Positions 4,672-30,420 of a stretch of DNA of 36,524 nt are shown here, piece after piece; positions within the stretch are counted from its first letter, which is position 1, and each line of letters begins with the position of its first letter. The stretch is from IMG/VR virus record IMGVR_UViG_3300007734_000637, positions 1 to 36,524 of that record; one strand, given 5' to 3'. The stretch is from a virus. The translations under genes and the position numbers were made by a program. The notes under the pieces were generated by a model. The model did no database searches, was not told where the DNA came from, and worked only from the letters and a program-made list of their open reading frames with translations.

Positions 4672-4841
4672 GCAAACAAATAAATGACTTATTAGACATA
4701 TATAACGACCCAAAGCTAACATCAAAAGAGCGTGAACATTGCCTTTTTTATCATTGTGTTTTCGTTTTATTATTTAGATTATTGCTAGTCTTTCAATGCA
4801 TTACCATTTATGAGACAATCCCCAATAAAAATAACCAATAA
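4668..4841 (+). CDS. Small hypothetical protein, possibly truncated by insertion
   Basis: The 57-residue ORF starts with a normal-looking hydrophilic segment, MSKQINDLLDIYNDPKLTSK, then changes abruptly to a hydrophobic, AT-rich stretch (FVLLFRLLLVFQ). The switch near 4740 may mark where the R-M module joined and cut off the original gene. Alternatively it is a one-helix membrane protein. The start overlaps the previous stop as ATGA. Confidence 0.45.
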   Translation: MSKQINDLLDIYNDPKLTSKEREHCLFYHCVFVLLFRLLLVFQCITIYETIPNKNNQ

Positions 4842-4851
4842 AATCTCATAA
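4808..4851. promoter_or_regulatory. Inverted repeat upstream of the C5 methyltransferase
   Basis: Perfect 8-bp arms TTATGAGA (4808-4815) and TCTCATAA (4844-4851) are separated by 28 bp and end about 10 bp before the methyltransferase start. R-M genes commonly need timed expression, and no separate controller protein is visible here, so this may be an operator or leader structure. No clear ribosome binding site is seen before the methyltransferase. Confidence 0.35.
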
Positions 4852-4861
4852 CACATTGATA

Positions 4862-5863
4862 ATGAAGAAGTTTAGCTTTATAGACTTATTTGCTGGAATT
4901 GGCGGGTTTCACCAAGCTGCTGTTTCAAATGGCGGTAAGTGCCTTTTTGCCTGCGAAATAGATGGCGCTGCCAAAGAAGCTTATGAAGCAAACTATGGTA
5001 TCAAGCCACACGGTGATATTACTCAAATTGATATAGAGAAAATTCCTGAACACGATTTGTTATGCGCTGGATTTCCATGTCAGCCGTTTAGTATTATTGG
5101 AAGTAGGCAAGGTTTTGATGACATTAGAGGCACATTGTTTTTTGAGATAGTTCGAATACTTGAAGTTAAAAAACCTCAAATGATTGTTCTTGAAAATGTA
5201 AAGCAATTAGCCACACATGACGATAAAAGAACTATTACCAAAATAATCAATACGTTAAATGGGTTGGGTTATAAAACTGACTGGAAAGTTTTAAACGCTC
5301 TTGATTATGGTTTACCTCAAAAAAGAGAGCGCACAATTATTGTTGGTTTTTTAAATCATGAAATAGCTTTCAATTGGCCTGAGAAGATTAAAAAATATAA
5401 GCCACTTTCAGAAATTCTTGAGAAAGACATTGATGAAAAACATTATGCAAGCGAGCGTATAGTTGAAAAGCGACTGGCTAAACATATTAGTAATCACAAT
5501 CCGTCTATTTGGCATGAAAATAAGAGCGGTCATATTTCAAGCTATCCTTTTTCTTGCGCCTTAAGGGCTGGAGCCTCGTATAACTATCTTTTAGTTAATG
5601 GAGAAAGACGGTTAACTCCAAGGGAAATGTTAAGGCTTCAAGGTTTTTCAGAAAAGTTTAAAATTGTCTGTACAGATTCACAAACAAGAAAGCAAGCAGG
5701 GAATGCCGTGCCTGTGCCTATGATCCAAGCAGTTATAAAAGAGGTTTTGAATGCTTCCGCCCAAGTTGCGCGACACCAAACACAGGAAAAAATCCGAACT
5801 ATATCCGTTAGGGGGCTTTCCGGAAGCGGTGATTTACGAGATCAGTCGTTGGCTTATATATAA
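4862..5863 (+). CDS. C5-cytosine DNA methyltransferase (Dcm family)
   Basis: The 333-residue protein has all the main C5 methyltransferase motifs in order: I FIDLFAGIGG (about 5-14), IV GFPCQPFS with the catalytic cysteine (about 70), VI ENV (about 112), VIII QKRER, IX with LTPREMLRLQGF and X GNAVPVP. It transfers methyl groups to cytosine within a short, unknown site. ATG at 4862 is preferred over TTG at 4856. About 30 residues after motif X share DNA with the start of the next gene, which is the candidate cognate nuclease. The low GC and location suggest acquisition by transfer. Confidence 0.92.
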   Translation: MKKFSFIDLFAGIGGFHQAAVSNGGKCLFACEIDGAAKEAYEANYGIKPHGDITQIDIEKIPEHDLLCAGFPCQPFSIIGSRQGFDDIRGTLFFEIVRILEVKKPQMIVLENVKQLATHDDKRTITKIINTLNGLGYKTDWKVLNALDYGLPQKRERTIIVGFLNHEIAFNWPEKIKKYKPLSEILEKDIDEKHYASERIVEKRLAKHISNHNPSIWHENKSGHISSYPFSCALRAGASYNYLLVNGERRLTPREMLRLQGFSEKFKIVCTDSQTRKQAGNAVPVPMIQAVIKEVLNASAQVARHQTQEKIRTISVRGLSGSGDLRDQSLAYI

Positions 5864-6374
5864 TTTTGCTATAGGTAAAGCAGATATAAGTGGTGAAGAT
5901 TGGGGAGATATATTTGCAAAAGCCATTGATGGTGGTCATCTTTCAAGTCCCGTGGGGTTGGCAGATGTTGTTATTGATGGTCAAGCATGGTCAGTTAAAA
6001 GTGTAAAGCATGATAAGCCTCATGAGTGCACCTCTTTAAGGGTTATCTCAGGAAGAAGCTCACCTGATTATTCCTATGGTATAGAAAATCCTCATAATGA
6101 CATACAAGAAACCGGCAATGCTGTTATTGGTATTTGGAATGGACGTGTCAATATTGCTTTAGAAAAATTTGATTTCTTGCGTACAGCTATATTGGTAAGA
6201 AATGCTAATAAACTTGAATTCGCTCTATTTGAGGAAGATACTCATAGATTTAATGCGAATGAATATCGCTGGGAAGTCAATAGTCGCGGTAATTTCGAAG
6301 GTTTTGATAGAACCAGCAATTTGCATAAATTTACCTGGCAGCCTCATGGTGCACAATTTACGATATGCGATTAA
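5751..6374 (+). CDS. Candidate type II restriction endonuclease
   Basis: The 207-residue protein overlaps the methyltransferase gene by 113 bp in another frame, the typical arrangement of a type II R-M pair. Residues 69-86 contain GLADVVIDGQAW followed by SVKSVK, which fits a PD-(D/E)XK nuclease core with D72 and K83 or K86 as candidate metal and catalytic residues; the usual Glu is replaced or displaced. The N-terminal helix (FPEAVIYEISRWLI) would support dimerisation. I cannot assign a recognition site. The call rests on context plus a short motif. If intact, the phage would both protect its own DNA and cut competitors. Confidence 0.65.
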   Translation: MLPPKLRDTKHRKKSELYPLGGFPEAVIYEISRWLIYNFAIGKADISGEDWGDIFAKAIDGGHLSSPVGLADVVIDGQAWSVKSVKHDKPHECTSLRVISGRSSPDYSYGIENPHNDIQETGNAVIGIWNGRVNIALEKFDFLRTAILVRNANKLEFALFEEDTHRFNANEYRWEVNSRGNFEGFDRTSNLHKFTWQPHGAQFTICD

Positions 6375-6406
6375 GATTATTGCTATTTTGAACGAAAGGT
6401 ATAAAA

Positions 6407-6628
6407 ATGATTAAATATACTGGCGTTATTACTTTTAAAATTGATATTGAAGCCGTTGATATGGAAGCAGCGGAGCATATAGCCAGCCAAGCCTTGCCGA
6501 ATCATTTTTTATTTCGAGATGACAAAAGAGGTGTTGGTAAGTTCTTAAGGGGACTGATGCCGGTGGTTTTTGAAGCGGATGATGTTGCTGTGAGTATAAA
6601 TAACGAAAGCTACTGGCGCAACAGATGA
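6407..6628 (+). CDS. Hypothetical protein (73 aa)
   Basis: This small acidic protein opens with an alternating beta-like segment (YTGVITFKIDIEAV) and a helix rich in Ala/Glu. I recognise no family. The ribosome binding site is GAAAGG. It overlaps the SleB-like gene by ATGA (6625-6628), so the two are probably co-translated. Confidence 0.6.
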   Translation: MIKYTGVITFKIDIEAVDMEAAEHIASQALPNHFLFRDDKRGVGKFLRGLMPVVFEADDVAVSINNESYWRNR

Positions 6629-21470: not shown

Positions 21471-22619
21471 TTAACCTAACAACGTTGCAACGTGATTTGG
21501 TTTCCAAACTTTCGTGCCGTACAAACAACGCACTTCAAGCATGGTTTTCATATAACCTTTATAAACTGCAATTTCAAACACTAAGCCGCTATTAGGGTCT
21601 TGCACTGTCATAACGTCAACAGCACTGTCACCACCATTAGGCATTGCAGGTGGGCGCATACCTAACTCAACCGCTGATTTATGGAACGCAACGCTTGGTG
21701 TGTAAGAATCGCCAATTGTTAAAGCGTTTGCTGTAGCAATGACTTTTTGCGCACCCGGAGCGTTTAATGAAATAGTGCCAGCAGCAGTAACACCAGTACC
21801 AACAACATATTTGTTAGCAGTATCTGCTGCAAAGGTAACAACGTCACCAGCCAATACTGTTCCGCTACCTGTTACAAGAGCAATATCAGTTACACCAACA
21901 GCAGTTGAACCTGAAGTAACGTAAGAAGTACCACCGCCTTTTGTGTGCGTAGTAATACCAGCCGATTCTTTAATCATGATACCTTGCAAATCAAGCAAAG
22001 TGCCTTGGCGAAGTAATGCTTCATTACCTGAAGTGTTAACTTGTTGAAGTGCCGCAAGGTTGCGCAATTTAACGCCAGCCGCTGTGTTCATAACCAATGA
22101 AATTTGGTTATCAGTTGGGCAACCGTTATCCACTAAGATTTGACGCACTTGCGCAATGGTGTCGAAGTTTGACGCAAATGGTGTTGTTCCAGCAGTACCA
22201 ACAGCGCGTGACGCGCCTTTGTAAGCTGCTGCAAATAAGTCTTGCTCGATTTTGTTGCACAATGCACGGATTGCTTGTGCGATTTGATCGCCATAAATGG
22301 TTTCATATCCAGCACCGTTATTAACGTGCTTAATATCTTCACCAGTCCAAGGGATTTGAACAGACGCATAAGAGTCTAGCGTCATTGTTTTGTTGTCAAC
22401 GGTTTGGTCTGTACCTTCAGGGATTGTCATTGAAGGCGCGAACGAAGTGTTAACGCTTGGTGTGCGGGTAAATGCCGCGCGGATTGTGTCGCCTTTAGCA
22501 GCGCGAGTTGTTGCGTCACCGTTAATGGTGGCTGATGGGATAAAACCAACTAATTCACGACCAACTACGTCAGCCGCTTTATAAATATCTCCGGCTAAAT
22601 TTGATAAAACATTACTCAT
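21471..22619 (-). CDS. Major capsid protein (P22 coat-like family)
   Basis: The 382-residue protein resembles P22-type coat proteins: an N-terminal helix MSNVLSNLAGDIYKAADVVG with VGFIPSATIN, then VQIPWTGEDIKHVN and a long helix with IAQAIRALCNKIEQDL. A Gly/Thr-rich insertion (about 230-300) could be an extra surface or telokin-like domain. It lies just after scaffold, apart from an inserted homing endonuclease gene. Its start overlaps that gene's stop as ATGA, so its ribosome binding site (GAGGAA) is inside the endonuclease coding sequence. Confidence 0.85.
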   Translation of the reverse strand: MSNVLSNLAGDIYKAADVVGRELVGFIPSATINGDATTRAAKGDTIRAAFTRTPSVNTSFAPSMTIPEGTDQTVDNKTMTLDSYASVQIPWTGEDIKHVNNGAGYETIYGDQIAQAIRALCNKIEQDLFAAAYKGASRAVGTAGTTPFASNFDTIAQVRQILVDNGCPTDNQISLVMNTAAGVKLRNLAALQQVNTSGNEALLRQGTLLDLQGIMIKESAGITTHTKGGGTSYVTSGSTAVGVTDIALVTGSGTVLAGDVVTFAADTANKYVVGTGVTAAGTISLNAPGAQKVIATANALTIGDSYTPSVAFHKSAVELGMRPPAMPNGGDSAVDVMTVQDPNSGLVFEIAVYKGYMKTMLEVRCLYGTKVWKPNHVATLLG

Positions 22620-23332
22620 GATAATTCCTCTTTAATTTGAAGTTTTTTAGCGGCTAATGTCGCTAATCGTTTTGCAATTCGCTTTTCAACCCATTCTGGT
22701 GATTGCGCTTTACCTTTGTGAGCCACCGACATTTTATCTCTTGTTTCAGTCGATAACACATTGCCTAATGCTCTTTTGTTTCCAATTAAACTAGCAGATA
22801 CTTTTGCTTTTGTTTCATCGCTATGTTTTTTTCCTAAATTTGCTTTTCTCATGTTTTCAATATGAGATTTTGATTTTTTTACACCTGTATTAACTATCCT
22901 TATTTTTTCTTTTGTTTCGTCACTGCGTTTTTTTCCTTTGTTTCCATCAGATATAGCTTTTTTATGCTCTGTTGACAATTTTATTCCAGTTTTACTAATG
23001 CTTATTTTTGCTTTAGTTTTATCAGAACGTTTTAAACCTAATGCGCTATTAGCTTTAATTGTTGCATTATATCCATCGCAATACGAATTAAAAGCGTCAA
23101 TAGCTTGTTGTTCGTAAAACAATAAGTTTTTAGGTTCACAAAAAATGATTGGTTGAAATATAAAAGCATCTTCGCCATGTTTATTCCATGCGCGTTGAAG
23201 TTTTATTGAGTGATGGGCGTTTTTTACTAAAACGTTTTTATGCTTTCTAAATCTTGTTCTAAATGATTTTGCTGAGCCAATGTAGCATTTACCATTAACA
23301 ACATTTTGAATTTTATAAATTCCACCAATCAT
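22616..23332 (-). CDS. GIY-YIG homing endonuclease with NUMOD3 repeats (1)
   Basis: From ATG at 23332 the 238-residue protein has the GIY-YIG core at its start (GGIYKIQNVVNGKCYIGSA), catalytic Arg in FRTRFRKHK, and conserved HHSIKLQRAWNKHGEDAF. The C-terminal half has repeated K-S-D-E-T-K-x-K/I motifs typical of NUMOD3 DNA-binding modules (LKRSDKTKAKIS, KKRSDETKEKIR, KKHSDETKAKVS). Such free-standing endonucleases cut a homologous phage lacking them and spread. It is inserted between scaffold and capsid genes. A GTG three codons earlier is an alternative start, but GGAG fits the ATG. Confidence 0.92.
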   Translation of the reverse strand: MIGGIYKIQNVVNGKCYIGSAKSFRTRFRKHKNVLVKNAHHSIKLQRAWNKHGEDAFIFQPIIFCEPKNLLFYEQQAIDAFNSYCDGYNATIKANSALGLKRSDKTKAKISISKTGIKLSTEHKKAISDGNKGKKRSDETKEKIRIVNTGVKKSKSHIENMRKANLGKKHSDETKAKVSASLIGNKRALGNVLSTETRDKMSVAHKGKAQSPEWVEKRIAKRLATLAAKKLQIKEELS

Positions 23333-23364
23333 AATAACCACTCCAGCAAAGTTTAGGAGTAGTT

Positions 23365-28756: not shown

Positions 28757-29141
28757 GCACTGCCCTTTCAACTAAAAATGTGTAACCTGTTTTGATGGTT
28801 GCTTCAACTCGATCAGTTGATACGCCAGACGCTTTGCCCCGCGCAATCTCCGCTGTAATAGCCGCGTTTATTTGATTGTTTTTAACTGCAAGGTTTCGCA
28901 GTGTCATTAAGTCTTTAAGGTGAGATTCAAGCGTAATACCAACGCTTTCAATGATTGGTTTGCGCAGTTCGTCAACCCTACCCGAAACCGCCCCGCTAGA
29001 CATTAACTCACTAGCTCTTTTTTGTATGGTTTCAGCTTTGGTATTTACACCAACATCAAACGCTCCACGATAAGCGTCCGCCTGTGTTTTTCCTTCAGCC
29101 ACTAATTGCGCAAAGCGTTCTTGTTTAGGTGTGAGAGCCAT
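28746..29141 (-). CDS. terS: Terminase small subunit
   Basis: The 131-residue protein begins MALTPKQERFAQLVAEGKTQ, followed by ADAYRGAF, a characteristic TerS helix-turn-helix start (Terminase_2 type). It binds the packaging site and regulates TerL. It is followed at once by TerL and overlaps the methyltransferase gene by 17 bp. Confidence 0.88.
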   Translation of the reverse strand: MALTPKQERFAQLVAEGKTQADAYRGAFDVGVNTKAETIQKRASELMSSGAVSGRVDELRKPIIESVGITLESHLKDLMTLRNLAVKNNQINAAITAEIARGKASGVSTDRVEATIKTGYTFLVERAVRED

Positions 29142-30420
29142 ACGGTTCGCCTGTTGATTCTAAAATAGCTTGTTTCCCTGTGAAATCTTGCCAGCGTTTG
29201 ATGATGACATCGCAGTATTTTGGGTCTAGTTCCATTAAACGGGCGTGTCTTGATGAGTTTTGACAAGCCATCATGGTTGTTCCACTGCCACCAAATAAAT
29301 CAAGCACAATTTCTTTAGGTTTGCTGCTCCACTCAATCATTCTTTGCACTAAGTTTACAGGTTTCATGGTTGGATGCAATTCGCTACGAGAAGGTCTATT
29401 TTCTCTAAGTGTTGTGTTTTTTTGTTCAGTCCGATAACTATTAACCAGTTCTTGCAATTCTGCTTTGTTCATTTTTTTAATATCTATATCATCATCGATT
29501 ACGCTTGTTCGTGTAAAGTCACCGCAAAAATAATGAGCTGCACCTTCTTTCCATCCATATAAAATTGGTTCATGTTGCCAGTTAAAATCTTGACGACTTA
29601 ATGTTCCTGATTGTTTAACCCATATAAGCACTTGGCTTAATTTAAAACCAGCATCTTTAAAACATTTTGTAAAATTAACACGCTCTGAATCGGCATGAGC
29701 AACATAAATAACACCACCATCTTTTATAACCATAAAATAACAAGCATATACATCAAGAAGAAATTGCTTGAAAGACTCATCACTCATATCGTCATTTAGA
29801 ATTTTTCCAGCAATACCTTCAATAGCCACATTATATGGCGGGTCAGTCCATACCATATCGGCTTTACTTCCCCCCATTAAAACATCAACATCATCAATGC
29901 TAGTGCTATCGCCACACATTAACCGATGATTTCCTAATACCCAAACATCATGCAGTTTTGTTGTTGGCTCTATTGGTGCATCAGGTATTTCATCTTCATC
30001 GGTAAGACCATCTTGCACATCTTCTTCATCACCAATCAATGATAATTCTGTGCTGTCAAATCCTAGTAATTCTAAATTAAACCCTTCTTCTTCTAGTTTT
30101 TGAAGCTCCAACGCCAACAAATCATTATCCCAACCACTGTTCAACGCCAAACGATTATCTGCAAGGATATATGCTTTCTTTTGCGTCTTGGTGAGGTGTT
30201 TAAGCTCAATGGTTGGTACTTCATCAAGTCCTAGCTTTTTAGCCGCCATAACGCGACCATGACCGGCAATAATGCCATTCTCACCATCCACCAAGACGGG
30301 TGAATTAAAACCAAACTCTTTTATGCTGCTTGCTATCTGAATAATCTGCTCGTCGCTATGTGTTCTTGCATTATTTACATAGGGGATTAAGTCCACTATT
30401 TTTTTATTTATAATTTTCAT
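29125..30420 (-). CDS. ParB-like domain fused to DNA adenine/cytosine-N4 methyltransferase
   Basis: Residues 1-90 form a ParB/sulfiredoxin-like domain with VLVDGENGIIAGHGRVMAAK. A linker rich in Asp/Glu follows (130-155). From about 155 there is an N6/N4 methyltransferase with DPPY at 193-196 and the SAM motif DLFGGSGTT near the C-terminus, plus LHPTMKP; the order (DPPY first) is beta class. Such fusions occur next to terminases in many phages and are thought to protect DNA or mark it for packaging. The target is unknown. Confidence 0.9.
   Translation of the reverse strand: MKIINKKIVDLIPYVNNARTHSDEQIIQIASSIKEFGFNSPVLVDGENGIIAGHGRVMAAKKLGLDEVPTIELKHLTKTQKKAYILADNRLALNSGWDNDLLALELQKLEEEGFNLELLGFDSTELSLIGDEEDVQDGLTDEDEIPDAPIEPTTKLHDVWVLGNHRLMCGDSTSIDDVDVLMGGSKADMVWTDPPYNVAIEGIAGKILNDDMSDESFKQFLLDVYACYFMVIKDGGVIYVAHADSERVNFTKCFKDAGFKLSQVLIWVKQSGTLSRQDFNWQHEPILYGWKEGAAHYFCGDFTRTSVIDDDIDIKKMNKAELQELVNSYRTEQKNTTLRENRPSRSELHPTMKPVNLVQRMIEWSSKPKEIVLDLFGGSGTTMMACQNSSRHARLMELDPKYCDVIIKRWQDFTGKQAILESTGEPYGSHT

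Follow-up and report, generated by a model that had tools for sequence, protein, structure and literature searches.

Among 831 phage genomes, nine restriction-modification (R-M) systems were counted against 143 solitary methyltransferases, and the solitary enzymes were judged to have seldom arisen from complete systems that decayed in place (PMC4176335). Methyltransferases of the lactococcal 936 phages have been shown to protect against restriction (PMC4190342). These orphan enzymes resemble the one described here as methyltransferases of lytic-type phages with a role in anti-restriction, presumed in our case, but they are adenine-specific and have no endonuclease remnant (PMC4190342). A C5 methyltransferase with 42.5% identity to ours lies beside annotated restriction endonuclease subunits in Streptococcus phage phi1207.3 (spyIM). 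That system is, however, divergent, and its two endonuclease genes are larger, belong to a different kind and are both apparently complete. M.HhaI and the C5-methyltransferases of the Pfam family DNA_methylase correspond to our enzyme over the full length and in all motifs, while M.HhaI differs in the recognition region.

The locus was analysed within a window of 36,524 bp, which is a whole virus record from a metagenomic assembly and carries an exact 127-bp direct terminal repeat at its ends. The window encodes portal, major head, tail and terminase proteins as well as the recombination proteins RecT, RecE-like and SSB, and its terminase is nearest to terminases of tailed phages, e.g. Caulobacter phage DMCA and Salmonella phage Akira. 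Two further genes were observed on the minus strand: one at 29125-30420, for another DNA methyltransferase that carries a fused ParB-like domain (phrog_498, E 9.5e-167), and a homing-endonuclease-like gene at 22616-23341, located within the head module directly 3′ of the major head gene.

The reading we regard as probable is that of a captured R-M cassette whose nuclease is clipped and likely inactive and whose methyltransferase serves in anti-restriction. In this reading, a type II R-M cassette entered a siphovirus genome at a small gene that lies between the recombination genes and the lysis region, and brought with it a complete C5-methyltransferase together with an endonuclease gene cut at codon 205. 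The clipped enzyme has most likely lost its activity in full or in large part. The methyltransferase would then in effect be an orphan, methylating phage DNA inside the infected cell and guarding the phage where the host, or a mobile element resident in it, possesses the intact cognate enzyme. The features of the locus are listed in Table 1, in which L numbers denote the loci and records used for comparison.

Table 1. Positions in the window of the R-M insertion and of the phage gene that it interrupts
Feature	Position	Strand	Basis
5′ half of interrupted phage gene, 24 codons	4668..4739	+	87.5% identical over 24 residues to L070, L072
R-M cassette inserted in the phage, 1,624 bp; left boundary known to within 1 bp	4740..6363	+	Absent from L070, L072
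Cassette leader 5′ of methyltransferase	4772..4861	+	Aligns to L002 (pairwise alignment)
C5-cytosine DNA methyltransferase, M.HhaI-like, intact	4862..5863	+	333 aa from ATG at 4862; Pfam, TIGR00675, PDB
Overlap of the two genes, 113 bp	5751..5863	+	Kept to the base at 14 further loci
Type II endonuclease gene, C-terminally clipped, 207 aa	5751..6374	+	Family alignment, end of homology, fold
3′ half of interrupted phage gene (YAIKIIAILNERYKND)	6364..6414	+	Matches continuation YAIKIIAILNERYKK in L070

Insertion of the cassette, as documented by sequence alignment, was evident from two related phage records that represent the empty site. In both L070 and L072, window position 4739/4740 is joined straight to 6364 within an uninterrupted gene of about 39 codons, which the cassette splits after codon 24. 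None of four related phage records possessed the methyltransferase. The GC content of the cassette is 36.8%, compared with about 42% in the flanks, and no target duplication was seen at the insertion. A repeat of 12-13 bp (4775-4787 and 6373-6385) was considered as the insertion mechanism and rejected; its two copies do not both fall on a junction, and a repeat of this size is close to chance expectation.

The same alignments revealed the clipping of the endonuclease, which an earlier note had taken as half of a complete R-M pair. The reading frame comprises 205 family residues followed by Cys-Asp and a stop codon deriving from phage sequence, whereas intact homologues are 242-251 aa long (270 aa in L011). 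About 37 C-terminal residues, present in all intact relatives, are missing, and they are not encoded elsewhere in the window. DNA homology to every endonuclease relative is over by 6361-6366 at the latest, i.e. at the right junction of the cassette, and the pair can therefore not be called complete. The cut falls inside the strand formed by residues 202-208 of the full-length model. Every phage base on the right-hand side is retained, and the simplest view is therefore that the endonuclease was clipped as it was captured; had a deletion come later, its end would have had to coincide precisely with the old boundary. If clipping and capture were one event, it would follow that this phage never had an intact nuclease at this locus.

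The methyltransferase (open frame 4856/4862-5863, plus strand) matched the Pfam profile DNA_methylase over positions 1-322 of 324 (E 2e-89), TIGR00675 (E 9e-88) and the PDB sequence of M.HhaI (E 1e-65), and it contains the full motif set expected of a type II R-M enzyme, in agreement with its earlier description. The positions given before for both frames (4862-5863 and 5751-6374) and for their overlap were likewise exact, and no controller ORF was found adjoining the pair, as had been noted. The overlap had also been taken to imply coupled dosage; its conservation at other loci (Table 1) indicates that it is not due to chance, and it is, to judge by that conservation, an inherited trait of the R-M family and no adaptation of the phage. 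In the leader, at approximately 4816-4852, TTATGAGA and TCTCATAA form an inverted pair that is kept in L002 and could be an operator. Promoter and terminator scans yielded no excess over shuffled sequences.

The window methyltransferase is 95% identical to, and colinear with, that of L002/G001. Relaxed selection on the endonuclease, with fast decay, was considered for the unequal identities to L002 (95.5% for the methyltransferase and 83.2% for the endonuclease) and was rejected, as the window copy is no further from outgroups than the L002 copy. Recombination between the genes among lineages fits the contrast better than decay, and dS was saturated.

Homologues of the window endonuclease were found at 66 other loci, nine from viral contigs, 56 from species genomes and one from an unannotated faecal phage record; the nearest genome copies include one in a Methylococcaceae MAG. 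The window protein itself matched nothing in Pfam, NCBIfam, PHROGs, PADLOC or the sequences of the PDB, nor did the endonuclease match anything in plasmids. A close relative of the same C5 methyltransferase was present nearby at 61 of the 66 loci, mostly overlapping or abutting the endonuclease gene, which speaks against the case, raised in the earlier note as a refutation, that homologues never stand beside methyltransferases. Of the remaining five loci, L021 and L028 lie at contig edges, L052 and L066 are broken copies, and in L036 a different methyltransferase lies directly 5′ of the endonuclease. No intact copy with readable flanks was without a methyltransferase, as would be expected if the nuclease is toxic alone. 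In addition, the PADLOC REase_II model PDLC03480 matched nine of 54 family members (best E 6.5e-5). On the evidence of these homologues the second protein is a member of a real restriction-endonuclease family, one undescribed in Pfam, NCBIfam and PHROGs, and the R-M reading of the earlier note is right in kind.

The fold was predicted with AlphaFold2 from the full-length homologue in L002 with 53 sequences (pLDDT 93.1). Foldseek yielded no significant match in the PDB, the best being a structure of EcoRV (E 0.12). Upon VIA re-alignment of the full-length model, 3NDH ranked top (Z 8.7, rmsd 4.5, 176 residues), followed by HinP1I (2FKC and 1YNM; Z 7.5 over 145 residues) and then Eco15I, EcoRV, NaeI, NhoI and DpnI. 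Nearly all top matches were PD-(D/E)XK nucleases, mostly restriction enzymes. Most of these Z values are within reach of unrelated folds, and the argument therefore rests on the uniformity of the list. We take 3NDH to be the restriction endonuclease ThaI, with the site CGCG, and the site of HinP1I to be GCGC. The likeness to 3NDH is one of fold alone, as no sequence match was obtained up to E 10 with either a single sequence or a profile; neither 3NDH nor HinP1I has detectable sequence similarity to the family (11-13% identity in structural alignment), and the window copy differs further in lacking the end that 3NDH matches. The product of the second ORF contains GLADVVIDGQAWSVKSVK. D72, W80 and K83 do not vary across the 53 aligned family sequences, and D72 and K83 occupy adjacent strands of the full-length model; the helix before them has an acidic residue at position 50 throughout, whereas Ser or Gly is found at position 81, the place of the usual acid of the (D/E)XK motif two residues ahead of K83. 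The second protein is, on the fold matches of the model, very probably a PD-(D/E)XK endonuclease, and the nuclease fold that had been suggested for it was recovered. The presumptive recognition site could not be read from palindrome avoidance: GGCC (0.50) and CCGG (0.59) were rarest relative to expectation, a result that is not interpretable, and CGCG and GCGC were not avoided.

The substitution at position 81, the lack of a sequence match of the window protein to any known nuclease family and the outcome with Foldseek alone would also suit a downstream protein that is some other nuclease or a methyltransferase-associated factor instead of a restriction endonuclease. This we consider very improbable, given that the fold matches are mostly restriction enzymes, that relatives match the REase_II profile and that intact copies with readable flanks always accompany a methyltransferase. 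A lesser chance still is given to an assembly artefact, in which the clip or the entire insertion is a chimera of an R-M genome with the phage. The contig is metagenomic, and its endonuclease and methyltransferase differ in their nearest relatives; such differences occur at other loci too, however, and past the cassette the phage sequence continues with the base that follows directly in the empty site, so that a chimera would require two misjoins at one point.

The alternative to which most weight should be given, albeit an unlikely one, is that the clipped endonuclease is still active and that a working R-M system attacks competing phages or unmodified DNA. D72, K83 and every other invariant residue up to T204 are retained in the remaining 205 residues, and the 207-aa protein yielded a confident model with its core sheet predicted intact and with PD-(D/E)XK matches (best Z 7.5), among which HinP1I and EcoRV matched as well as they did the full model. 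Some residual cleavage or nicking by the protein is possible on account of these residues and matches. On the other hand, all intact homologues have at least 37 further residues, including P210, P221 and W239, which are kept in 51-52 of 53 aligned sequences and fall in a gap in the window, and the best match, 3NDH, covers the lost end, its Z value dropping from 8.7 to 7.3 when this is missing. We infer from this a loss of cleavage. Exclusion of rival phages and stabilization of an episome-like state, both raised in the earlier note, require an active nuclease and are thus unsupported by the clipped copy; nor was an integrase seen among the scanned genes of the window. Under the favoured reading of a captured cassette with a clipped nuclease, anti-restriction methylation would be the likeliest role, ahead of exclusion or addiction.

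Intact pairs were also present in contigs with phage genes, i.e. L004 (terminase, endolysin), L008 (tail protein) and L006 (head-tail adaptor, major head protein), although the methyltransferase frame of L006 is not fully clean. Filamentous-phage genes for a coat protein, an ssDNA-binding protein and an integrase are found on L075 (7,129 bp; same record as L002), where positions 1-1630 hold a further intact pair directly 3′ of a Zot-like gene. The endonuclease stop codon forms the very end of this contig, so that the pair may be either cargo of a filamentous phage or flanking host DNA. The chances seem to us evenly balanced that we see in the window how an orphan phage methyltransferase arose, with capture and nuclease loss in one event, out of a compact R-M family whose intact members are also carried by several phage types unrelated to each other, possibly a filamentous phage among them. 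A capture clipped at its junction, with empty-site relatives, would be one concrete route from an R-M system to an orphan methyltransferase. The novelty is modest and consists of an undescribed endonuclease family and a clean event of capture with clipping.

Variation in gene arrangement was observed within the family. In L036 (410-3439) the gene preceding the endonuclease encodes a methyltransferase of a different type (756 aa, phrog_10183), possibly as a result of a partner swap. In a gut clade (L009, L010, L044, L050 and L062) the endonuclease and methyltransferase genes are divergent, and reading of the ORFs of L009 and L044 revealed a helix-turn-helix-like region at the N-terminus of their methyltransferases, which suggests self-regulation in place of a controller protein.
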